A DNA stretch of 64,000 nt from Gemmatimonadota bacterium (lineage in GTDB: Bacteria; Gemmatimonadota; Gemmatimonadetes; Longimicrobiales; Longimicrobiaceae). The DNA lies in the NCBI GenBank assembly GCA_031260285.1, contig JAIRKD010000063.1, forward strand, positions 1-64,000, given 5' to 3'. The notes under the pieces were generated by a model that had not been told where the DNA came from, made no database searches, and saw only the letters and a list, made by a program, of their open reading frames with translations. A program made the translations under genes and the position numbers. Positions 41,491 to 54,958 of this stretch are shown in pieces. Positions within the stretch are counted from its first letter, which is position 1. Every line of letters begins with the position of its first letter.

Positions 41491-42168
41491 ATGTCCTGGT
41501 TGGATGAAGTCCGGTTTGACAGCCACGGCCTGGTTCCCGTGATCACGCAGGCGGCACTGTCGGGAGAGGTGCTGATGGTGGCGTACGCGAACCGCGAGGC
41601 GCTTGAGCGCTCTCTGGAGACCGGGTACGCCCACTACTGGAGCCGTTCACGGCAGGAACTCTGGAAGAAGGGTGAGACAAGCGGGAATGTCCAGCAGATC
41701 GCGGAAGTCCGGATCGACTGTGACGGTGACGCGGTGCTCTACCGGGTCGCGCAGGCCGGGCCCGCCTGCCATACGGGGAACCCCACCTGTTTCTTCCGGA
41801 CAGTGGATGAGAACGACGCGCTGGTGGAGGCGTCCGCGGCCGCGCACATCATCACGCGGGTGGATGAGACAATCGAGTCGCGGATGCTGGAGCCGAAGGC
41901 GGGGTCGTATACGAACTATCTTCTGGACGCGGGGCTGGACAAGATCCTGAAGAAGGTGGGCGAGGAGGCGACCGAGGTGGTGATCGCGGCGAAGAACGGC
42001 TCCGCGGAGGAGCTAGGGTCGGAGACGGCGGATCTGGTGTTCCATCTTCTGGTGATGCTGCGCGCGCAGGGGCTGCCGCTGGCGGCGGTGTGGGAGGAGA
42101 TGGAGCGGCGGTTCGGGAAGCCGCCCCGGGAGCGGTCGGGGCGGCGGGATCAGGGGTATAGTGCGTAG
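41491..42168 (+). CDS. hisIE: Bifunctional phosphoribosyl-AMP cyclohydrolase / phosphoribosyl-ATP pyrophosphatase
   Basis: 225 residues. The HisI domain (about 1-115) has the zinc and metal residues in [17 protein letters not shown] and [12 protein letters not shown], and [16 protein letters not shown]. The HisE domain (about 125-215) has [16 protein letters not shown]. It catalyses steps 2 and 3 of histidine synthesis. It lies on the other strand from hisZGD, about 0.5 kb away, and is followed by a strong hairpin. Confidence 0.96.
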
Positions 42169-42365
42169 GGGTATGGTGAGGAGAATGCGCCGGGGCTCAT
42201 TCTCCTCACCAGGCGAACCTTATACTTGCGAGGCACTCCAGCTTCGGGGGAGCTTACGCATTCACTCACAGAAAAATCCTTCGGACACTTATCCAACCCG
42301 AAAGAATCTTTGAAATTCACTGGATCCCCATCAGCGTATCCGTAGACATCCATGCCACCCGTGAT
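42150..42365 (-). pseudogene. RHS C-terminal fragment (fourth tip cassette, truncated)
   Basis: The minus-strand frame reads GGMDVYGYADGDPVNFKDSFGLDKC, in pieces identical in style to the RHS core end, then CPKDFSVSEC and an unrelated short tail to a stop at 42150. DNA over the core end and first tip residues closely matches the complete gene near 46725-46815. Homology begins right after the stop of the preceding membrane gene. It has no start, and its final part runs through the hairpin into hisIE. It is a decayed cassette. Confidence 0.65.
42175..42210. terminator. Long hairpin between hisIE and the RHS cassettes
   Basis: GGTGAGGAGAATG (42175-42187) pairs perfectly with 42198-42210 (13 bp, 10-base loop). 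It lies 6 bases after the hisIE stop. No T-run follows on either strand, so it is either a U-less terminator or a folded 3' end. The right arm lies at the end of the last RHS tip fragment. Confidence 0.55.
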
Positions 42366-42382
42366 CATACAAGAAGCTGACG

Positions 42383-42676
42383 TCAGGTCGCACCTTTGTA
42401 TGTTCCCGAATGGTACATCCACAGGGCGTAGATAAAAGCCACTGCAAATACCGTCTCACACAGGTACATCCAGATCAAGAGCTTTCGACCGTTGGAAGTG
42501 TAGTTATTCGGATTCAAGGCCTGAGCTTTCCAGAGCCCGGGGTGCCCCCTGCCATAACTTCCGGGGGGAATATCGGTTCGATGCTTCCTCGCGATTATAG
42601 CGATGGAAAGGCTTATCGCCGACGACATTACAACTACGCGAATAAGTATCGACAATATCTGATTGTCAGTCGTCAT
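42383..42676 (-). CDS. Small membrane protein, candidate immunity protein (paralogue A)
   Basis: 97 residues from ATG 42676, preceded by GAGGAG at about 6 bases. There are two membrane helices with, between them, KHRTDIPPGSYGRGHPGLW and NYTSNGRKLL. The same layout recurs in the next gene (42863-43150), so the two are tandem paralogues. Its place behind an RHS tip suggests immunity to a membrane-acting toxin, which is inference. The frame stays open upstream to 42820, but that part has no homology to the paralogue. Confidence 0.6.
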   Translation of the reverse strand: MTTDNQILSILIRVVVMSSAISLSIAIIARKHRTDIPPGSYGRGHPGLWKAQALNPNNYTSNGRKLLIWMYLCETVFAVAFIYALWMYHSGTYKGAT

Positions 42677-42862
42677 CCCTCTCTCCTCGAATTGATATTT
42701 GTGTTTGAAGGGCCCCTTCGCATCAAAGAGAAGCATTGAAAGAAATTGAATCATACACTCCTGCCTGTCCGTCACATCCAGATCCAGGATATGACGGACA
42801 GTCGTACAGGTTCTGAACATCCCTTACCAAGACGAACTATGTCTTACCCCCGCTGTAATTCA

Positions 42863-43150
42863 CTAAAGGAGAATACCACCCGTAATAAATATCAGAATAG
42901 CCAGATATACCCACTTCAGCAGCCGTTTGCCGTCAGCGTTGTAATTTCTGGAATCCAACCACCGGACATTCCAGAACATCGGGTTCCCTCTTTCGTACTC
43001 TCCCTTGAGAAGATCCGTTCGATGCTTCCGGATGACCATACTGGCAACCAGGGCGAATGTATACGAAGTTGCGATCAATATAATCGGCAATCGTCTGCGC
43101 AAACCCACGGTTGACAGGATCGTTTCGATTGTATTTTCCGGAATCACCAT
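42863..43150 (-). CDS. Small membrane protein, candidate immunity protein (paralogue B)
   Basis: 95 residues. Two membrane helices (about 20-40 and 78-94) flank RKHRTDLLKGEYERGNPMFW and RNYNADGKRLLKWVYL, matching the neighbouring paralogue. Its ATG overlaps the stop of the third RHS tip by 7 bp (43144-43150), the usual toxin-immunity coupling. It is therefore the likely immunity protein of the Gly-rich tip. The family was not recognised. Confidence 0.65.
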   Translation of the reverse strand: MVIPENTIETILSTVGLRRRLPIILIATSYTFALVASMVIRKHRTDLLKGEYERGNPMFWNVRWLDSRNYNADGKRLLKWVYLAILIFITGGILL

Positions 43151-44090
43151 TTCCAGGACCCCGTTGAAATTATACCCGCACGCAAAGAGCGATCAAGATG
43201 TTGAAATGCATTGCGGAATCTACTCCGTACCTCATATGTCTGGGTTTCACCAAACTCCGTATGACCTCCCGCCCGCGCAACTCCAGCACCTATTCCATAT
43301 GTCGTAATCCCGGCATCCGATCGGCAAACGCTGGCCGCACCAAGACCACCACACACAGACTCAGAGTATCCCCGAAAGGCACTCAAGCTCCCACGCCCCG
43401 CTTCAACTCCTCCGTAGACATCCACTCCAACCGCGCCTCCGCCTTGGTGGTATATCCCAGCCATTCCGGAGCCGAAATAGAAACCGGTTGATCCAACGAA
43501 ACCGCCTCCGACGACAAAGCCGCCTGCCATCCCGATGAAATAGACTTCATCCTGCGTAATCACTGTCCTGCAATCCTCGACGGGCCTCTCCTTGCACTTA
43601 TCCAACCCGAACGGATCCTTGAAATTCACCGGATCCCCATTGGCGTACCCGTAGACATTCATACCGCCCGCGATCCCGATCGGGTCCGGCTGCGTAAACT
43701 GCCCCGTATTCGGGCTGTAGTACCGGTTTCTCTTGTACTGCAGGCCCGTGGCATCCGTCTGACCGAAGATGAGTGAGCCATACCAGGAGCGCACCCTGTA
43801 AGGGTTGGGCGTCGGGATGAGATATAATTCCTCCGGCGCCGTCCAGGACGCCGCCGGCCAGATGATATCCGTATCAATGGTTCCGTTCAGAGGCGTTCCC
43901 ATGAGATACTGGCCTCGCGTGTTCCGGTGCAGCACGATCCCCGTCCCGTTCCGGATCATCCCCAGCGGCGCATCAATCGCAATGCCATGGATGTATCCGA
44001 TCTTCCCGGTCTGCGTACCCGCGGGCGGGTTCGCCGGACCTGCCAGATTCTGATCGCGCAGTTCCCAGAGGATCTCGTCCCCGTCCAGCC
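43144..44090 (-). pseudogene. Orphan RHS C-terminal cassette with Gly-rich tip
   Basis: This segment encodes the last about 170 residues of an RHS core (DGDEILWELRDQNLAG through GQFTQPDPIGIAGG and NFKDPFGLDKC). A new tip of about 135 residues follows: hydrophobic, Gly-rich (GGFVVGGGFVGSTG, VDVYGGVEAGRG) and ending GTISTGSWKW-like with SWKW. The core DNA is nearly identical to 46735-47240. The cassette is cut at 44090 by a transposase remnant, so the apparent ATG at 44133 lies in insertion-sequence DNA. It lacks a signal sequence and YD repeats and cannot be exported as it stands. The tip activity is unknown. Confidence 0.8.
43590..44090. repeat. RHS core DNA, direct repeat copy 2
   Basis: Near-identical direct repeat of 46735-47240, about 3.15 kb away. 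It ends at the IS3 remnant. Exchange with copy 1 would delete the intervening tip 1, its immunity gene and tip 2, and fuse the Gly-rich tip to the complete RHS gene. Confidence 0.85.
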
Positions 44091-44169
44091 CGGAAAGTCG
44101 AATCAGAATGCGTTCATCGAACGTTTCAACCACGCCTTCCGCGAGGAGCTTCTGGATCCCATCTTGTAA
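44086..44169 (+). mobile_element. IS3-family transposase (OrfB) 3' remnant
   Basis: The plus strand reads QPGKSNQNAFIERFNHAF, then REELLDPIL, stop TAA at 44167-44169. This is the conserved end of the IS3 OrfB integrase core, where GKPxQNAFIERFN with the catalytic Glu is nearly universal. Only about 27 codons remain and no terminal inverted repeat was recognised. It abuts the RHS cassette border exactly, marking an old insertion or recombination point. Confidence 0.75.
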
Positions 44170-44182
44170 ACATCAAGACATA

Positions 44183-44225
44183 AAAAGGCAGGGCGACCCC
44201 GAAACTTTGGTTCGCCCTGCCTTTT
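44183..44225 (-). terminator. Bidirectional-looking intrinsic terminator
   Basis: AAAAGGCAGGGCGA (44183-44196) pairs with 44212-44225 over 14 bp with a 15-base loop. On the minus strand the stem ends in TTTTTA, 10 bases beyond the stop of the DUF3396-like immunity gene. On the plus strand it also ends in TTTT after the transposase remnant. Confidence 0.85.
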
Positions 44226-44235
44226 CCCTGCGGAA

Positions 44236-45057
44236 TCACGTCGAAGGGAGCTTCTCTGCCTTGGCAACTGTCGCCAGGACGGGGTCCAGGAACTCCGAGA
44301 GTTTCTCTACCGCCGTCCTGTATGCCGTGCTCTCAACCATGAGGGGGTCAGTTGAAAGTCGAAGATAAACACCTCCTTCAGGAAGCGATCTAACTTCGGC
44401 AACAGGGGCCTCGTTCCGGATACGTTCCAGCCCCCCTAAATCGTTCACAAATTTCGGCCCCAGGAAAGTGCCCCAGCCAGCCCTCGCGTAAGGACCAAAT
44501 AGATTATACCCCAAGCGAAGGCGTTGAATTGCAAAGAGACGCTTTTCCTCTTGGTTATCCTCTTCAGTTGGCTCAGAAGTCCGTGGCCATTTGTTGAACA
44601 CAATCCCTGTCAACTCTGATGCGACCTTACGATCCTCCTCCGAAATCACAATCATCCCACAGCTGACAGAGAATAAGCTCCATAATCTGATTGCCAGATT
44701 CTCCGCCTCGCTCAGATCCTCGATCCGTGAAAGTATCTTTTCATACCTCGCCTCAAGGTATCGGTTCGGGCCAAATCCCTCTATGTCTATATCTACCAGA
44801 CCTTGATAGTCCTTAGCAGACCCCATCCACCCAATCAAGCCGGAGAAAACCCCACCCCTGATATCCACAGTTAACTGCTGAATGGACGTATCCGTCATTC
44901 TCGTTCGACGAGAAAACTTATCAGTCCCTGCCAGCATCCCTTGAAAGGTAAACTTCGCCTTCGGATCATCCTTCTCTACAATGCGTAGCGCAGTTGTTAC
45001 AAGTAAAGGATTATCACGAATATCAATATTATGATAACCGATCATTCCAAAATTCAT
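44236..45057 (-). CDS. DUF3396-like immunity protein
   Basis: 273 residues. The C-terminal part contains GPYARAGWGTFLGPKF, LGGLERIRNEAPVAEVRSL and GGVYLRLSTDP, read in pieces, which fits the DUF3396 (type VI immunity) family. It begins 9 bases after the stop of the nuclease-tip cassette and should neutralise that tip. It has its own ATG and could be expressed alone. DNA is AT-richer than the chromosome backbone. Confidence 0.7.
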   Translation of the reverse strand: MNFGMIGYHNIDIRDNPLLVTTALRIVEKDDPKAKFTFQGMLAGTDKFSRRTRMTDTSIQQLTVDIRGGVFSGLIGWMGSAKDYQGLVDIDIEGFGPNRYLEARYEKILSRIEDLSEAENLAIRLWSLFSVSCGMIVISEEDRKVASELTGIVFNKWPRTSEPTEEDNQEEKRLFAIQRLRLGYNLFGPYARAGWGTFLGPKFVNDLGGLERIRNEAPVAEVRSLPEGGVYLRLSTDPLMVESTAYRTAVEKLSEFLDPVLATVAKAEKLPST

Positions 45058-45066
45058 GATTACTCA

Positions 45067-45893
45067 TTAATAGAAGTCTACAACTCCACTAAATACCTTA
45101 CCATATGCATTTTTAGCCGCTCGAGCATAATTGCTCAATTGCCTTAAACCTCTCATTTCGGCTGCCGGATTATTTGGTTTCAGCTCCCGGATAATTCCTC
45201 GTTCCACATCAATCGCATCCGGTCGGAGACGGGACCCGGGAATCTGCCGGTTTGTCGTATAGCCCTCCGCCTGTCGATCCGCGGAGTATTTGGCATGTTC
45301 TGCTCTTCCCCGTTGTGTAGCGGACGTCTCCCCACCCCGGAACATGACTCCCGTTACCATCTGACCGATAGCCAGACCGGCGGTAGCCCCCATTGCCGCG
45401 CCCATCTGAGCCCCGGCAGGAGCGGTCACCAGCGCTCCGAACCCTCCCATCGCAAGACCGAACGCTCCACCTGCCCCACCCCCCGCGCCATAGCCAACCA
45501 GCGCACCCAGCGCACTGAATGTCGCTTCGACAAGCGGACACACACCCGCTGCATCTCGTTCATTCGCCGGGCACAACCCGAACGGATCCGAGAAGTTCAC
45601 CGGATCGCCATTAGCGTACCCGTAGACATTCAGCCCGCCCGCGATCCCGATCGGGTCCGGCTGGGTGAACTGCCCCGATACCGGGCTGTAGTACCGATTC
45701 CTCCGGTAGCTCAGCCCCGAAGCATCCGCCTGTCCCATGATCAGCGAGCCATACCAGGGACGCAGCCGGTAGGGATCCTGCACCCGGATCAGAAAGGGTT
45801 CCTCCCTCGCTGATCAATGATCCCCCGCCCAGAGGATCCCCGTGTCGAGACCCCCTCCATCCGCTCCTGTCGCCATCAGGTACTGACTCCGTA
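45067..45893 (-). pseudogene. Orphan RHS cassette with REase-fold nuclease tip
   Basis: Homology to the RHS core starts at QYLM (about 45893), immediately after the preceding immunity gene, and passes through an in-frame TGA at 45814-45816. It continues as YGSLIMGQADASGL, GQFTQPDPIGIAGG and NFSDPFGL. After a Gly/Ala-rich hydrophobic stretch, the last about 90 residues carry DAIDVERGIIRELKP, a PD-(D/E)xK-like nuclease core (D, then E-x-K), as in Tox-REase tips. The stop after the core and the absence of an export signal make it a silent cassette. Met at 45783 gives a 238-residue open frame. Confidence 0.78.
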
Positions 45894-45897
45894 CGCT

Positions 45898-46281
45898 CTA
45901 TCTAACTACGAATACTATGTAGCAATCACAACCTTTAATTTTTGCGACTCGAGTAATTTCCGCGATACCGGCAACGGCCGCCTCAAAGCTTCGCGGTGCA
46001 GACACTTCCCTGTTATCAGATCGATTCGGCTCGTAGTGCCACGACAAATAATGGTAATCGAAACTCCATGCATGGACAGCATATACCAATCTATCTGTCG
46101 AATCCGTCAAGAGCAGTTGTCCTCCAAGTATAATCCATTGCTCATCCTTCAATAGCTTGAGAGCCGACGGAACGTCATTGAGAGAAATCGCCCATTCATC
46201 ACTGCCAGGATTGATGTCTGACAATGGTCTTCCGCACTCCTCAATAAAATCGAGATATTTCATAATTTGAATCTTATCCAC
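45898..46281 (-). CDS. Imm40-like immunity protein of the active RHS toxin
   Basis: 127 residues (GTG 46281; ATG 46263 possible). WAISLNDVPSALKLLKDEQ followed by ILGGQLLL and AVHAWSFDY resembles the Imm40 family of immunity proteins. It starts 19 bases after the RHS stop, exactly where the cognate immunity gene is expected. Small, soluble, no signal. It likely protects the producer from the tip at the RHS C-terminus. Confidence 0.65.
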   Translation of the reverse strand: MDKIQIMKYLDFIEECGRPLSDINPGSDEWAISLNDVPSALKLLKDEQWIILGGQLLLTDSTDRLVYAVHAWSFDYHYLSWHYEPNRSDNREVSAPRSFEAAVAGIAEITRVAKIKGCDCYIVFVVR

Positions 46282-46300
46282 CTCGGCAACAAAGGTGTTA

Positions 46301-49300
46301 TCAATAGGGTCTAAAAAATCTGTGCGTGATCAACCCTGCTCCATCCTTGATATACTCAAACACACCTGTTTTTGCACCGTACTTCCCTGCCATCTGAAGG
46401 TGCTGGTATGCTTGCCCATCTCCACCAACTCTTGTTGAAAACCTCCCGAAGGCCGAGGCAAATCCATCAACACTTTGCGGGAACGTATGAAACATGTCAT
46501 CAACTTTTCCCAGCTGCTCAATGACCGTTTCTGAGTGGGCAGCTCCTTCAAAAAAACTGTTTGCCGCTGACAAAGATCTGGCTTCGGCCGCCACGAGACC
46601 AAGCCGGGTTATGGCCGCAGCCTCCCCCAGCATCCCCATGCCGCCGCTGAGAGGCATCGTCACGAGTGTCCCCCAGATCTCCAGAGGCCGCTGGGCTGGC
46701 ATAAGCGTCCAGCCAGTGCATTCAAACACAGAAAAATCCTTCGGACATTTATCCAACCCGAACGGATCCTTGAAGTTCACCGGATCCCCGGTGGCGTACC
46801 CGTAGACATTCAGCCCGCCCGCAATCCCGATCGGATCCGGCTGGGTGAACTGTCCCGATACCGGGCTGTAGTACCGGTTTCTCTTGTACTGGAGGCCCGT
46901 GGCATCCGTCTGATCGAAGATGAGCGAGCCGTACCAGGAGCGCACCCGGTACGGATTGGGCATCGGGATGAGATGGAATTCCTCTTGGACACTCCAGTAC
47001 GCGGCCGGCCAGATGATATCCGTATCAATGGTTCCGTTCAGAGGCGTTCCCATGAGATACTGGCCTCGCGTGTTCCGGTGCAGCACAATCCTCGTCCCGT
47101 TCCGGATCATCCCCAGAGGCGCATCAATCGCAATGCCATGGATGTATCCGATCTTCCCGGTCTGCGTACCCGCGGGCGGGTTCGCCGGACCTGCCAGATT
47201 CTGGTCACGCAGCTCCCAGAGGATCTCATCCCCATCCCAGACGACACGTTCAATTGCACTGACACACCGGCCATTGTACTGACAGACCGGTGACTCCCGA
47301 CGGGTCCGCTTCAGGATCCGTCGCCCCAGCGCGTCGTACCAGTACTCCTCGTACGCGCCCCAGTTGGAATACTCGGGGTTGTAAACGGTGTAAAAGGGAT
47401 GATTGTTGTGGTCTTTGTCAATATAATTATTCAACGTCACTTTCAGGGAGTCCCGATTGATCTGGGAGACCATCAGCTTCCCGTCTGCTCCGTAGTAGTT
47501 CCGGGAGACACTCCGGGCTGCGGGAGTCGGACCCGAGATATCCTGAACGCGCTCCAGATTCCCCCGCACATCATATTTCCAACTGGTACGGTGAAGGACA
47601 TAGCCATCCGGCATGACCATTCCTTTGACCGCCCAGACTTCCGTCCGTGAGGTAATCCGTCCGCCTTCCAGATATGTGGCAACTTGTGTGTGAGGGAGTC
47701 CCGACTGGACGTTTATATCCTCTGGTGTGTAGCTCAGGGAGGAGAGCGCATTCCCGAATGGATCCCGCGTAAAGTCCTCCGTGAGCCGCAGACGCAGAGC
47801 CCCTCTCGTATCCCACTGGGTTGCTTTGGTTACCGACCCCAACGCGTCGTAGGTTGTGCTTTTGGTGCGACGACCCATCGCGTCATAGCTTTCGATCATC
47901 CCTTTCCCGTAGATCCCCAGAACGGCCAGCTCCGTCAGCCGCCCATCGTTGTCCCAGGTCAGGTCGTCCGTCCCGGCAGGAGTCTGGATTCCCGTTGGCA
48001 GGCTGTTTACGTTCCAGTTGTAGGTATACGGGGTGCCATTGGGGTCCGTGATGGTCTGCAGTTCCCCGGTGGTTGCGTAGTACTGGTACGCTGTTGTTCC
48101 GGTACTCAGGACGGAAGGATGCTGCATCTGAATCCGGCGTCCGTCGCGATCGTAGCTGAAACTCAGACCGTAGCGATAGGTGGAGAAACCCGTACCGCTG
48201 TAGTCACGGATCGCACTGGAATCTGTCTTCAGCGCCCCACCTGGATAGTAGCTGCGGCTGACCCGTGCGTACCGGTTGTTGGCTGTGAGCAGGTTCCCGC
48301 TGGGATCAAAGGTATAGCTCTGCGTATCCGCCGGAATCGTCAGCCCGCCGGGAGAGAAAGCGGGAACCGGGAACTGCCAGCCCTGCGTTGACGCTCCCTG
48401 CAACATCCAGGGGATCGTATCCCCTGGGTAGGCGGAGATGAACTCTGTTGCGTACGATTTTGTCGGGATGACCCGGCGGCTCACCCGGTTCAGGGCGTCA
48501 TACGTCATGAATACGACGTCTCCACCCGGACTGGCCATCCGCAGGACATTCCCCGCCGCGTCGTAGGAGAGGGTATCCCCGACCGAGGCAGGAGTCCGGT
48601 TCACCAGCACCCGCCCCATCCGGTCGTACGTCCAGCTGGAGGTGCCCCCCGGAATGGAATCCGCCGTCCCCGAGCGGCCCCAGACCCGGGACTGCGTACG
48701 GTTTCCGTTTATGTCGTAGGTGTGGGTCACCGACGTCCACATCGTGATGCCGCCTCCCACCCCGATGTCCCGCGTGGACAGGACCCGGCCCATCGCGTCG
48801 TAGCGGATGCTCTGGCGAAGGGTGCTGGTCCCCACTGCAGGCTGCACCACCGAGGTATCCCGGCCCAGTGCGTCCTTCACGTAGCTCGTCTTGAAGCCCA
48901 TCGACGTTGATGAGCTCTTCAGGTTCCCGCGCTCATCGTACTCCAGCAGCTCCGCGGCAGGGGGCCCCGGCGGGTCGGCTGCAGTGAGTTGCCCGTTCCC
49001 GTTATAGCTGTAGCTCCAGCGTCGGGTTGTATCCTCCCCCGGCTGCTGCCACGCTACGTTTCCGTTGCTCAGGTATGAGTAGCGGGTGACCTCTCCTTCC
49101 GGCTCTGTGACCTTTGTCGGCAGGAAAGGGTTGCTGGCGTCCGCGTATTCGTACAGCGTGACCGCGTCACGTCCGTCTCCGTACGGGTTGACCGCTGTGA
49201 TCTGGACCGGGTTCCCCCGTGCATCAAACGCCGCTCGCGTGGTATAGCCGTTCGGTGCCTGTGCTTCCGTCACCAGCGCCGGGAAACGCGCGTCCCCCCG

Positions 49301-51760
49301 GATCAGCGTTGTCTCCGCGCCCAGTGCGTCCCGAATCACCGTGGGCGCTCCGTACCGGTCCGTCCAGATCCGCGTCACCGTCGTATCCGTACGCGGTCCG
49401 TTGATCAGCGTCATCGCTTCGGTGAGCGCCACCGCCGTCAGACCGGTCCCGTTGCCCACCCTCAGACCGCGCACCTCCGATGGCGTAAACGCGGTCCGAA
49501 TGTTCAGACGCGCAGCCCCGCTGTCCGCTACCACTGCCGCAAGACGGCTCCCCTCCACCGTGTACCCGTAGGTCGTGATCACCCCCAGCTTGTCCGTCCG
49601 CCGGGTGACCAGTCGGCTGGTCGTGGTCGCGTAGCCGAACTGGATGCTCTGGTTGTCCGGGTCCTTGATCCCTGTCACCCGCCCACTTCCCAGCGTCACC
49701 ACCGTCGCGCGACTTCCCGGCGCCGTAACCGTGTATGTTCCGGTTCCCCAGCTGATCGTATACGACTGCCGGAGAGTCTCGGTGGGCGCCGCCAGCTTGA
49801 TCGCGGTCAGCCTTCCACTGCTGTCGTACGTGAAGTCCGTCCGCTGACCCAGGCGACTGATGGTTGCGTTCTGCCGTCCGGTTGCGTCAAACAGCACCTG
49901 CGTCTTGTCCGGCAGCCTGCGGGTGTACTGGCTGGAGGCCAGGCTCAGCGTATCCGCGCTCCGGTCCGGGTTGATCGCCACCCACTTCGTGATGTTGCTG
50001 GGGGTCGTTGGCTGGTACAGCCGCGTGCTTCCGTCTCCCCCGATCCAGAGCCAGGAGCTCCCGCTCGCCACCAGCTGCTCCACTCCCGCCACCCACCAGC
50101 CCGCCCCGTACGGCGATGCGCTCCGGTTCACCACCACCAGCTTCCCGCTCTTCGTCTGCTGATAGCTGGTATTCCCCAGCTTCACTTCCAGCGTGTAGTC
50201 GTATACTCCCGTCGCCAGCGCGCTGGCATCAAACCCCAACGCAATCCGCCTTGCCTGTCCTGCGCTCCAGCCCGTCAGGCTCCAGCTGGTATTGGCCCGC
50301 TCCGTTCCCGCTACCTTCAGCACCGCTGTCAGCGACTGACCCGTCAGCGTCACTCCTGTCGGCAGCAAAACATTCGCCGCTACCACGGGCACCGGTGAAG
50401 CGTGCTGGCTATTGTAGAGAAGTGTCGGAGCCCGGGCGATATTCATGGCGGTCGTCACCGGAAGCCCGTGCGCCAGCCGAAGATCCCCGCACTCATACGC
50501 CGCTCCCGCCCCCGCGGAGATGTTCAGACAGAGCGAACGCGTCACTTCCGTCCCCGGGTTCAGCGTCTCCAGCTCCACACTCAGGACCCCTGCTGCAACG
50601 CTCAGCGTATACGCCCCCGTCGCCTCAATCCCTGCCAGGGCACCCCGGCCCTTCGCCTTCAGCTGAACGGTACCCGTACCCTCTCCCCCTGTGTACGTCA
50701 GCGTTGCCGTTGCGCTATCCCCCGGAGCCAGGGTCACGGCACCCGGCGTCACCACACACCCCTGCGCAGGCCCGCCTGCACAGACAGCTTCCAGATCAAA
50801 CACCCCGCTTGTGGTCCCGCGGTTCTTCACCTGGAACAACAGACTCCCCGCCCCCCCGGACACTCCCGTCGCCACTCCACTCCCCGGCGTCACCTCCAGC
50901 TTCTCCACCGACACCTGCAGCACCCACTTCCCCAAACGTGCCGGCTCACTTACCGGTGTCGCCGTCACCTCCACCGTCCCCATCGGGGTACCCAACCCCC
51001 CAACCGTATAACGCAACATTGCACTTCCGCTCGCTCCCGGCGCCAGCGTCAGCGATGTCGGGAGCAGCAAGCACCCCGTCACTTCCGGTGAACAGTGATG
51101 AGACAACACAAACGTCTTGCTCGATCCACCTACATTCTTTACTGTGAATCCCTGTGTACGTACCGTATCCGGGGCGGACACAATACGCGACGTGCCCGCA
51201 TCCACCACCGCCAGAGGAATCGGGAGAGGATTCTCAACCGTTGCATACACCGTGGCCCTTGCTGCCTCCTTCCCGTCCTCGTTGATCAGCAGAATCGGAA
51301 CGACCTCCGAATCAATCACGCCCACAGCTACAAACACCTCTGCCTCTGCCCCCGGGGTTCCGGCCGGTGACAGAAATACAAATGTGCTGTAGACGAGCCC
51401 CGTGCTTTCCGTCGAAACGCCCAACACCCCGCTCCAGGAAGAATAGTTGTACACCTGGAACGACACCCATCCGATCTTCCCGGGGCGCAGCGTGATATGA
51501 AACTCCGTCTGCGACAACCCGATGTCAGGCACCTGACCCACCTGTCCTTCCACCCGCCCCGCGAACCCCGACAGAGCCACAGATACGACCAGCAACATCC
51601 GGCTCACTTTCAGGAACGGCCGGAAACGGGAAACAGCGTACAAAAGCTCCTCCGAACGGCTGCCACGGCAGAGGCTCGATATGGATAGAGCCGAACGGGT
51701 CAGGCAGAGAACAAGGCCCATCAGGATAGCGGTCATCACAGAATGTGTCAGGCTTCGCAA
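46301..51760 (-). CDS. RHS-repeat polymorphic toxin, full length
   Basis: 1819 residues. A hydrophobic export signal is present; starts at 51760, 51736 or 51598 (MLLVVSVALSGFAG) are all possible. Residues about 75-400 form Ig-like/CARDB-type domains (FTVKNVGG, FQVKNRGTTSG). RHS/YD repeats run from about 640 to 1560 (YDSSGRL, YDAAGNVL, YDAMGR) and build the toxin-enclosing shell. The core ends with D1642-PIG and D1665-PFG, the DPxG autoprocessing motif. The tip (about 1734-1819: NSFFEG, FHTFPQSV, GGDG, GVFEYI, HRFF) matches a widespread RHS/CDI toxin tip of unproven, perhaps RNase, activity. No VgrG, PAAR or Tc partner is nearby. Confidence 0.9.
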   Translation of the reverse strand: MRSLTHSVMTAILMGLVLCLTRSALSISSLCRGSRSEELLYAVSRFRPFLKVSRMLLVVSVALSGFAGRVEGQVGQVPDIGLSQTEFHITLRPGKIGWVSFQVYNYSSWSGVLGVSTESTGLVYSTFVFLSPAGTPGAEAEVFVAVGVIDSEVVPILLINEDGKEAARATVYATVENPLPIPLAVVDAGTSRIVSAPDTVRTQGFTVKNVGGSSKTFVLSHHCSPEVTGCLLLPTSLTLAPGASGSAMLRYTVGGLGTPMGTVEVTATPVSEPARLGKWVLQVSVEKLEVTPGSGVATGVSGGAGSLLFQVKNRGTTSGVFDLEAVCAGGPAQGCVVTPGAVTLAPGDSATATLTYTGGEGTGTVQLKAKGRGALAGIEATGAYTLSVAAGVLSVELETLNPGTEVTRSLCLNISAGAGAAYECGDLRLAHGLPVTTAMNIARAPTLLYNSQHASPVPVVAANVLLPTGVTLTGQSLTAVLKVAGTERANTSWSLTGWSAGQARRIALGFDASALATGVYDYTLEVKLGNTSYQQTKSGKLVVVNRSASPYGAGWWVAGVEQLVASGSSWLWIGGDGSTRLYQPTTPSNITKWVAINPDRSADTLSLASSQYTRRLPDKTQVLFDATGRQNATISRLGQRTDFTYDSSGRLTAIKLAAPTETLRQSYTISWGTGTYTVTAPGSRATVVTLGSGRVTGIKDPDNQSIQFGYATTTSRLVTRRTDKLGVITTYGYTVEGSRLAAVVADSGAARLNIRTAFTPSEVRGLRVGNGTGLTAVALTEAMTLINGPRTDTTVTRIWTDRYGAPTVIRDALGAETTLIRGDARFPALVTEAQAPNGYTTRAAFDARGNPVQITAVNPYGDGRDAVTLYEYADASNPFLPTKVTEPEGEVTRYSYLSNGNVAWQQPGEDTTRRWSYSYNGNGQLTAADPPGPPAAELLEYDERGNLKSSSTSMGFKTSYVKDALGRDTSVVQPAVGTSTLRQSIRYDAMGRVLSTRDIGVGGGITMWTSVTHTYDINGNRTQSRVWGRSGTADSIPGGTSSWTYDRMGRVLVNRTPASVGDTLSYDAAGNVLRMASPGGDVVFMTYDALNRVSRRVIPTKSYATEFISAYPGDTIPWMLQGASTQGWQFPVPAFSPGGLTIPADTQSYTFDPSGNLLTANNRYARVSRSYYPGGALKTDSSAIRDYSGTGFSTYRYGLSFSYDRDGRRIQMQHPSVLSTGTTAYQYYATTGELQTITDPNGTPYTYNWNVNSLPTGIQTPAGTDDLTWDNDGRLTELAVLGIYGKGMIESYDAMGRRTKSTTYDALGSVTKATQWDTRGALRLRLTEDFTRDPFGNALSSLSYTPEDINVQSGLPHTQVATYLEGGRITSRTEVWAVKGMVMPDGYVLHRTSWKYDVRGNLERVQDISGPTPAARSVSRNYYGADGKLMVSQINRDSLKVTLNNYIDKDHNNHPFYTVYNPEYSNWGAYEEYWYDALGRRILKRTRRESPVCQYNGRCVSAIERVVWDGDEILWELRDQNLAGPANPPAGTQTGKIGYIHGIAIDAPLGMIRNGTRIVLHRNTRGQYLMGTPLNGTIDTDIIWPAAYWSVQEEFHLIPMPNPYRVRSWYGSLIFDQTDATGLQYKRNRYYSPVSGQFTQPDPIGIAGGLNVYGYATGDPVNFKDPFGLDKCPKDFSVFECTGWTLMPAQRPLEIWGTLVTMPLSGGMGMLGEAAAITRLGLVAAEARSLSAANSFFEGAAHSETVIEQLGKVDDMFHTFPQSVDGFASAFGRFSTRVGGDGQAYQHLQMAGKYGAKTGVFEYIKDGAGLITHRFFRPY
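46735..47240. repeat. RHS core DNA, direct repeat copy 1
   Basis: This part of the complete RHS gene is repeated at 43590-44090 in the same orientation with only scattered differences, including long exact stretches around the GTIDTDIIWP-coding segment. A shorter, more diverged match lies at 45600-45893 and a short one near 42267-42362. Such core repeats are substrates for replacing the tip by homologous recombination. Confidence 0.85.
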
Positions 51761-52049: not shown

Positions 52050-52535
52050 TCAACCAAACGCCTCATCAATAATCATCTCATCCTCCCCCGGATCACGCCA
52101 ACCACCATCCAGCGGATCCCCCCAGACCACCCGACGATCCTTCACACTGAACGGCTGCACAATAAACAGCCGCGTCCCCGCCCGATCCCTTGCTTCCCCC
52201 ACCAGCAACGCCCGGGGCTCACTATTCTCTGTCGCAACAATATCAAGAACAAGCATCAGACACGACGGAGGGTTCCTTCGTGCATAACTGGCAATCGCCC
52301 CGGAAAGAACCGTAGGTGAAGCACCCCCCTCTGTCGCCGCGGCAGGAATGGCGAGCGTCCGGAACTCGGGGCTCATGTGGCCGGGCCGGTCATGGACAAC
52401 ACGAACCCGGGGCGGCAGATCCGAACCAGCGGCAACCGCCCGTCCCAGCTCCAGCCGGAACTCCTGAAAGAGCTCATCCGCAAAACGGAGGGTGCGCTCA
52501 TAGGTTGAAACCGGAGAATTCCTCACCGCATCCAC
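52050..52535 (-). CDS. Hypothetical protein next to the metalloprotease
   Basis: 161 residues. No signal or membrane segment. The helical N-terminus (about 10-40) is followed by an alpha/beta part and an acidic C-terminus (DPGEDEMIIDEAFG). No family recognised. It starts 11 bases after the stop of the 803-residue lipoprotein gene and ends before a terminator, so the two form an operon. Confidence 0.65.
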   Translation of the reverse strand: MDAVRNSPVSTYERTLRFADELFQEFRLELGRAVAAGSDLPPRVRVVHDRPGHMSPEFRTLAIPAAATEGGASPTVLSGAIASYARRNPPSCLMLVLDIVATENSEPRALLVGEARDRAGTRLFIVQPFSVKDRRVVWGDPLDGGWRDPGEDEMIIDEAFG

Positions 52536-52546
52536 CCTTCCGGCCC

Positions 52547-54958
52547 TCAGAGGCCCGCACGTCCCGCGGAATTCCGGAAGCGGTCGACGGGAGTGTCGGC
52601 CGCAAAGGGGTTCCCTCCACAGAGTGACGGCGTGTTTCGCGGGCGGAAAGCGGTCTGTCCCGCCGGGCCACCACCTTTCCCCGCCGTCTCAGCCCGGGTC
52701 AGATACTCCTCAAACGCCGGCACAAGCTCCACAATCGCAGGGTCGGGAAGACCACCCGGAGCGCCTCCCAGCCTCCTCGTGATCCAGGCATCCGCGGCAC
52801 GGCGGGTATACACTCCCCCGAACTCGGTGGCCAGTGACCGGATCGCATCCACCGCAGCACCCCGGGTGGCGGCGCCCAGGCTCACATCCGCAAGTGTATG
52901 CTGGGCCGCGGTAAGCCGACGGATCCCCGCCGCCGAACTGAACCCGCAGTCACCCACCGCCTGGTACAGCCGCAGACCCGCATCATGAATTTTCTGCAGG
53001 CGGGCCTCCAGAGGAAGATCACGTCCGGCATCAATCACCGCCCCCGCGAGTTCACTCCCCATCAGCGTCCGGGATGGGCCGTAGCGGTTGAGCACCCACT
53101 CCCTCGCAGGCTCGGGAACGGGGGAAACCTCGTCCAGAATCGCCAGCAGCGCGGGAACAGCGGCCCCCGAGATATCCGGCCCCCGGGTTGTCCCGTAACC
53201 GGTGAGAACCGGATCCTGGAAGGAGGTCAGATACCCCCCAAGCCGTCCATCCCGGGCAAGAACCGCGGCTACCAGCCAGTCTGTTCCCCGCGCAAACACC
53301 TCTGCGGGCCGGCCCAGCCGCGGCATCGATTCATCATCCAGATCCGGCTGAACCAGGGATGCGGAAAGCTCCATCATGGCTGCAGCGATCCGGTCGCCAC
53401 GGTTGTCACGGACAGCCATATCCGTAGCGTATCCACCCCGCACCACATACCGGCGACGCGCCAGCTGCCAGTCGAGATCGTGAGCCAGCTCATGCGCGAT
53501 AGTCCCTGCCCCGCTCCGGGGAGGCAGGTACAGCGTCCGCGACCCCGGCTCGTGCAGGGCCAGCGCCTGGGCGTCACCCGGCAGCTTCCCGATCACAATC
53601 TCCACACCCCGCACAGAGGTCCTCGGCAGAACCCGCTGCAGTTCGGTGAGGCTGCGCGCCAGCATGCGAAGGTAATAGGAGCGCCAGGAGTCCGGCAGCC
53701 CGTCATCAAAGCTGATGCTGGAGATACCAAAACGCGCTTCCATCTCCCGGACCGCCGGCGCGGGATCTCCCGGGAACCAGGGCTCCTCCTGGTTCCAGAC
53801 CCGGAGAAAGGTGGCCGCCTGCAGGAGCACGAGAGAAAGCCGATCGCCGACATCCGCGCCCATGCCCGTCAGAACCCCGGCCCCCGCGGCAAGCTTCTCC
53901 TCGTTCCACGCCTCACCGACAAACTCCTCACGCGCCAGACGCTGGACACGCGTCAGCCCCATCCCCCCGGAGAGACCATCCCGGTTGATCTCAACAGCAA
54001 CGGCAACCGGAGCCTGGGCGGGGTAGTCGCGAAGCGAGGAGAGCGCACGGAGCCGCTCGGCCACATGGCCTTCAAGAAACGGGCGCGAGTTCAGATCTTC
54101 CCCGTCAGCGCTCTCGTCCACCAGTGTTGTGGGAGAACCCAGTCGCTGGGCAAGGCTGCGCAGTGCCATCGCAAAGATCGGCCCGTTCCGCGCCTCCGCC
54201 TCCTCCTCACGCATGGTCACCGGAACCATCCGGGGCTGCTCGACGGAAAACCGCAGCTCCCGGCGCCAGGCTTCCAGAAGCGTCAGAGGATCCTCATGAG
54301 TGTTCCGGGCGGTCCGAAGCAGCCGAGAAGCATCTTCTCTCGCCCGTCTCCGGTCGCCGATCATTGCCGCGACATGCGCAACAATGGTATTCGCGACAGG
54401 GTCCGCGGTACCATCCGAGGCCGTCAGCAGATAACCGAGCCGCACAGTCCGCTCTCCCGCCATGACGGTTGGCGCACCGGAGACCGCTTCCTCGATCAGC
54501 TCCAGCTGACGCGTACCCGCGTTCAGCGCGGAGGTGATGCCACCAAGACGGGCACGCTCCAGCACCCGGGGATCCACAAAGTAGGTAGCCCCATCCAGGG
54601 CACGCGACAGAATCCCGTAAGCAACAAGCGTCCTTGTTTCATCCGGCAGATCCGGATCGCGGAGGGCGTATTCAATGAGCCGGAAAGGACTTCCCAGCCC
54701 GAGACGGGCACGCTCGGCGTAGCCGAGCGCAATGACTTCATGGTCAGCAAGATGATCCGCAGGGCGGGAAGAGAGCTCCGCCAGGTAGGCGCGCCCCTCG
54801 GTAACCAGCCCGTTTACATCTCCGTTGAAAGCCCCTGAAGATATCCGGGAACATGCTCCGAGTGAAAGGATCACAAGGAACAGAAACGCCAGCAGAACCC
54901 GACCCGGAAGCAGGCGGATCCGCCGGAGATTTCGGCCGGAATGAATCAACAGAGACAT
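52547..54958 (-). CDS. Lipoprotein with HExxH zinc metalloprotease motif
   Basis: 803 residues. A long signal with lipobox SLGAC (Cys36) indicates a lipid-anchored, exported protein. The zinc motif H489-E-L-A-H493 followed by Asp (GTIAHELAHDLDW) sits about 60% along the chain; a Glu/Asp-rich helix after it may give the third ligand. The first 450 residues are helical and show no known domain. It is a putative metallopeptidase of unplaced family. The C-terminal about 60 residues are Gly/Pro-rich. Confidence 0.75.
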   Translation of the reverse strand: MSLLIHSGRNLRRIRLLPGRVLLAFLFLVILSLGACSRISSGAFNGDVNGLVTEGRAYLAELSSRPADHLADHEVIALGYAERARLGLGSPFRLIEYALRDPDLPDETRTLVAYGILSRALDGATYFVDPRVLERARLGGITSALNAGTRQLELIEEAVSGAPTVMAGERTVRLGYLLTASDGTADPVANTIVAHVAAMIGDRRRAREDASRLLRTARNTHEDPLTLLEAWRRELRFSVEQPRMVPVTMREEEAEARNGPIFAMALRSLAQRLGSPTTLVDESADGEDLNSRPFLEGHVAERLRALSSLRDYPAQAPVAVAVEINRDGLSGGMGLTRVQRLAREEFVGEAWNEEKLAAGAGVLTGMGADVGDRLSLVLLQAATFLRVWNQEEPWFPGDPAPAVREMEARFGISSISFDDGLPDSWRSYYLRMLARSLTELQRVLPRTSVRGVEIVIGKLPGDAQALALHEPGSRTLYLPPRSGAGTIAHELAHDLDWQLARRRYVVRGGYATDMAVRDNRGDRIAAAMMELSASLVQPDLDDESMPRLGRPAEVFARGTDWLVAAVLARDGRLGGYLTSFQDPVLTGYGTTRGPDISGAAVPALLAILDEVSPVPEPAREWVLNRYGPSRTLMGSELAGAVIDAGRDLPLEARLQKIHDAGLRLYQAVGDCGFSSAAGIRRLTAAQHTLADVSLGAATRGAAVDAIRSLATEFGGVYTRRAADAWITRRLGGAPGGLPDPAIVELVPAFEEYLTRAETAGKGGGPAGQTAFRPRNTPSLCGGNPFAADTPVDRFRNSAGRAGL

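Follow-up and report, generated by a model that had tools for sequence, protein, structure and literature searches.

Displaced tip–immunity modules are not peculiar to RHS genes: in mafB-CT/mafI arrays they belong to another carrier protein. For rhs genes, C-terminal displacement has been described in Enterobacteriaceae (Jackson 2009, PMC2935791), where dissociated tips, attached to core pieces of various lengths, lie behind a full gene and where recombination with circular intermediates was proposed. The rhs main/orphan locus of Salmonella LT2 has an orphan tip with its immunity gene behind the main gene, having about 500 bp of core in common with it and devoid of start or export signal, and tip switching was reported for Salmonella in 2014 (PMC3967940). 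Orphan cdiA-CT/cdiI modules (PMC3150448) are likewise displaced but belong to a carrier protein other than RHS.

The window analysed here, a stretch of 64,000 nucleotides, is part of contig C93 of a Gemmatimonadota genome, a fragmented 2.76-Mb metagenome assembly with 4.8% contamination. It holds a locus that is ordinary in kind, a case of rhs C-terminal displacement, and new in its host. All genes of the locus lie on the minus strand, in the order RHS, imm1, cassette 2, terminator, IS3 fragment, cassette 3 and cassette 4, with three displaced RHS 3′ ends (cassettes 2, 3 and 4) downstream of a complete RHS gene and its immunity gene:

46301–51760, minus strand: complete RHS gene, 1819 aa, with signal-like N-terminus, YD/RHS repeats, core and tip 1
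46754–47242, minus strand: end of the RHS core, last 163 codons, terminating in DPFGL
46301–46753, minus strand: tip 1, Ntox19-type (predicted BECR RNase), named by motif and partner (PMC3482391); homologs adjoin Imm40 in L139, L165 and L164
45898–46281, minus strand: imm1, Imm40-like immunity gene; possible ATG start at 46263; 28–29% identity to the Imm40 proteins of L139 and L165
45574–45804, minus strand: cassette 2 core fragment, with weaker core homology to 45909, containing two stops
45067–45573, minus strand: tip 2, Tox-REase-9 nuclease tip (PF15650, 2.9e-15), no start signal; RHS-fused in G016
44236–45057, minus strand: imm2, TsiV/DUF3396-like immunity gene; homolog beside the tip 2 homolog in G016 and G024
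44176–44225, minus strand: intrinsic terminator, a stem of ~13 bp then TTTTTATG, with A/T tracts on both sides
44101–44161, plus strand: IS3-family transposase gene fragment (rve_3), 61 bp
43595–44086, minus strand: cassette 3 core fragment
43144–43602, minus strand: tip 3, Gly-rich tip; RHS frames of L089 and G043 carry homologs
43169–43196, minus strand: promoter-like site TTGATC-16-TATAAT (10/12 consensus) inside tip 3, ahead of imm3a
42863–43150, minus strand: imm3a, membrane protein, its start codon overlapping the tip 3 stop
42383–42676, minus strand: imm3b, membrane paralog of imm3a; listed frame begins at 42820
42150–42361, minus strand: cassette 4, a relic of 104 bp core/linker plus a truncated tip of 47 codons that merges with the end of hisIE

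Reading frames and coordinates agree with the earlier listing, and the initial annotation of an RHS locus with downstream displaced tip–immunity cassettes stands, with small corrections, on the frames, core alignments and profile matches. The RHS gene it had called complete is indeed so, and its frame matches RHS repeats (PF05593, 1.3e-27) and TIGR03696 (3.6e-16); the listed TTG start is a mechanical call. The locus has what defines a rhs displaced-tip locus: a full-length RHS gene with a core ending in DPxGL and then a tip, downstream core-homologous fragments ahead of unrelated tips, and an immunity gene behind each of tips 1–3, recognised by conserved adjacency and of predicted cognate function; cassette 4 has no immunity gene. 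The annotation had seen in this order the known logic of polymorphic toxins with displaced C-terminal tips, rightly so given the descriptions of 2009 (PMC2935791) and 2011 (PMC3150448); its suggestion that the arrangement may be undescribed fails for that logic, on the same two papers, and holds for the particular set and the host. Upstream of the locus, the minus strand carries a 161-aa frame (52050–52535) without Pfam match and an 803-aa frame with HELAH (52547–54958) without Pfam or NCBIfam match.

The current weapon is predicted to be an Ntox19-type RNase tip guarded by an Imm40-like protein. Ntox19 is partnered with Imm38/Imm40 (Zhang 2012, PMC3482391), as tip 1 is with an Imm40-like protein, and D, H, D, E and HxxF of the Ntox19 motif set are present in tip 1, which differs in having Tyr for the Arg of DxxxR; tip 1 matched no profile. 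A Leptospira RHS protein and a Neisseria MafB protein both end in homologs of tip 1; the gene behind the former is an annotated Imm40, that behind the latter is Imm40-like, and the pair is shared with a MafB carrier. A further homolog with adjacent Imm40 is an orphan in a gammaproteobacterial array. Among 346 genomes of the phylum tip 1 is present only here, and a search for imm1 in plasmids gave no match. The protein itself does not match PF15569 (Imm40) directly and stays below the Pfam cut-off; homologs in the same position do match, and through them the Imm40-like label holds. The predicted structure of tip 1 is weak (mean pLDDT 57; C-terminal half 70–78, with four strands) and has no significant PDB match.

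Tip 2 scores 56.7 bits against PF15650, over the curated cut-off of 27.3. Its homolog in G016 ends an RHS frame of 1816 aa and is directly followed by an imm2 homolog (E 5e-44); other homologs sit on RHS-length frames (G297, G322), and in G024 the two homologs lie side by side. The DUF3396-like label first given to imm2, DUF3396 being the former name of PF11876 (TsiV), corresponds to a weak match to this family (18.8 bits, E 0.0011), under the cut-off of 25. In tip 2, GxxxH, D and ELKP of Tox-REase-9 are present while a clear YxxE is missing, and its partner is TsiV-like, in contrast to the Imm54 given for Tox-REase-9 (PMC3482391). Sequence searches of tips 1 and 2 against solved structures gave no significant match.

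The Gly-rich-tip cassette does carry two paralogous membrane genes (imm3a against imm3b, E ~1e-13), and imm3b probably starts at ATG 42676, behind GGAGAG. Homologs of tip 3 lie on the RHS frames of L089 (1546 aa) and G043, with an imm3-like membrane gene behind each of them; singly the matches are modest (E 3e-5 to 1e-3), but the weak matches are adjacent twice (G339:C411 is apparently the locus L089 again). Tips 2 and 3 are thus attached to RHS genes in other species of Gemmatimonadota. The predicted structure of tip 3 is unusable (pLDDT 28). The fourth truncated tip is likewise confirmed and merges into hisIE, and the IS3 remnant matches rve_3 (PF13683, 8e-7) and, over its 61 bp, another remnant on contig C18 at 93%. 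One correction concerns the claim that each cassette starts directly after the previous immunity stop: cassette 3 begins ~150 bp past the imm2 stop, with the terminator and IS3 fragment between them.

The core/tip border is sharp. The cores end at 46754 (main gene), 45574 (cassette 2), 43603 (cassette 3) and 42294 (cassette 4), and alignment of the four core/tip segments at DNA level shows the cassette cores to be 82–92% identical to that of the main gene: 231 bp align at 82% in cassette 2, 492 bp at 92% in cassette 3 and 104 bp at 84% in cassette 4. The match ends at or near the border, extending 36 bp past it in cassette 4. Per 60 bp, main gene and cassette 3 are 80–98% identical as far as the border and 40–52% beyond. 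On contig C33 of the same genome, the core is mostly 92–98% identical and the sequence behind it 51–62%, although the main and orphan tips there are homologous. Inspection of the frames and upstream sequence revealed no start or export signal on any cassette, in keeping with the initial annotation, which had noted the lack of start, signal and YD repeats; the N-terminus is absent too. Throughout tips 2 and 3 and the immunity genes that follow them, the frames are uninterrupted.

Because of this sharp border, the lack of visible start or export signals, the intact tips and the tip–immunity pairs found RHS-fused in other genomes, displacement is well supported: we are highly confident that homologous recombination in the core end has exchanged the RHS tip several times, displacing the old tips downstream. 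At each such event a new tip and its immunity gene would have been inserted behind the core, arming the RHS protein for a presumed secretion and killing, and the previous tip, together with the associated immunity gene and a residual piece of core, would have been pushed downstream, where they have neither start nor export signal. Cassettes 2 (nuclease) and 3 (Gly-rich tip, membrane immunity proteins) would then be older modules whose frames have stayed intact, and cassette 4 would be a relic. The core fragments of Enterobacteriaceae are identical (PMC2935791) as against 82–92% here, so the present cassettes look older; the phylum is different, and a terminator separates cassettes 2 and 3.

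Signs of exchange are found within the core itself. Main gene and cassette 3 show 4 differences in 201 bp upstream as against 32 in 250 bp near the tip, and differences between the main core and six paralogous RHS genes are spread about evenly; the p-values for this unevenness (~3e-4 to 7e-6) are optimistic, as segment limits were picked after inspection. The 201-bp tract fits crossover or conversion between the two cores. A mosaic test of cassette 2 between the C93 and C33 cores was not significant (p 0.14). The 492 bp at 92% shared by main gene and cassette 3 resemble the Salmonella stretch of 522 bp at 95% for which recombination was proposed (PMC3967940), and re-use of a displaced cassette by recombination, as in tip switching, is possible by analogy. 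Recombination and internal promoters have been reported for Salmonella LT2 (PMC3967940, PMC7043789).

The same architecture recurs in the host's family, where a full RHS gene is followed by core fragments at 14 loci in 8 genomes, with up to five fragments behind the main gene (the family maximum, G019:C13). Most fragments start 0–300 bp behind the upstream frame, fragment ends cluster at the border, and most of the longer orphans have uninterrupted frames. In one family, 10 of the 12 genomes sampled have RHS core matches, against 5 of 49 elsewhere in the order; G001, the one other genome of the genus, has no RHS core match, and the host's own genome has about ten core copies. At least seven further RHS loci are present there, on contigs C33, C27, C23, C6, C86, C45 and C26 (L043–L051, L053, L054), six with frames of 1638–1873 aa and one at a contig end, and displaced cassettes are again found on C33 and C6. 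Many tips (C27, C23, C6, C26 and several family loci) have HExxH-like motifs suggesting metallopeptidases; the C45 tip is CHAP-like (PF05257, 7e-4), and that of C86 weakly GIY-YIG-like. At C33 17715–19924 (L043), the homologous main and orphan tips (52% aa) both precede seemingly related membrane-protein genes, the second of which seems internally duplicated.

What the displaced cassettes do at present is a separate matter from their origin. With somewhat less than an even chance, they may be kept for their immunity genes, expressed to protect against neighbours, the tips being passengers; this concerns present use and is compatible with an origin by displacement. A strong terminator with its U tract is lacking between imm1 and cassette 2, and cassette 2, hence imm2, may be co-transcribed by read-through from the main promoter; the TATAAT of the promoter-like site stands just ahead of imm3a, and orphan immunity is expressed in E. 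coli EC93 (PMC3150448). A stand-alone imm3-like membrane gene without recognised RHS tip beside it (G339:C295:2902–3114, L170), possibly an orphan immunity gene, would also suit such a store. Against it, immunity storage alone does not require intact tip frames, orphan immunity is normally unexpressed in Salmonella LT2 (PMC3967940), and promoter-like sites show no overall enrichment in the ends of 135 tips, two of which, tip 3 included, have a site of this kind. Moreover, the hairpin at 44176–44225 (z -4.4, equalled in 0 of 200 shuffles) is a strong terminator in front of cassette 3, making read-through expression less likely there, and this cassette is presumably silent.

That the cassettes are only decaying leftovers of no present use seems to us rather unlikely: the two stops in the cassette 2 core, the C33 core frameshift, truncated cassette 4 and the C6 orphan, together with the IS3 fragment, do speak of decay, but the tip and immunity frames of cassettes 2 and 3 are fully open, like most longer orphans of the family. 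Still less probable are independent toxin–antitoxin modules run from promoters inside the cassettes; while main and orphan Rhs tips of Salmonella are driven by internal promoters (PMC7043789), the promoter-like site of cassette 3 precedes an immunity gene and not a tip, and neither tip 2 nor tip 3 has a good visible start signal. That a single RHS 3′ end was duplicated in tandem and its tips diverged later, a course which the homologous C33 tips might recall, is hardly credible here, as tips 1, 2 and 3 are mutually dissimilar, each has relatives in other genomes, and divergence changes abruptly from core to tip.

The locus extends the displaced-tip architecture worked out in enterobacteria to the Gemmatimonadota, in which it had received little attention before, and supplies several predicted toxin–immunity pairs, some of which, Gly-rich tips paired with membrane immunity proteins, are without a match in Pfam. 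It also raises the question of whether older cassettes are insulated by terminators. Random stretches of GC-rich RHS genes often fold nearly as well, so that only the strongest hairpins count; in 10 of 20 longer inter-cassette gaps of the family the hairpin is equalled by at most 1 of 20 shuffles, the one between cassettes 2 and 3 of the window having a U tract as well, and gaps shorter than 45 bp have no terminator-like hairpin separating the cassettes. This suggests that modules often keep a terminator of their own and that older cassettes may be transcriptionally insulated. We regard as doubtful, though worth stating, the more general view that in this family modules tend to carry their own terminators and that each new insertion both displaces and silences the older ones, in a “last-in, only-read stack”; were it true, older immunity genes would be on only if privately promoted.
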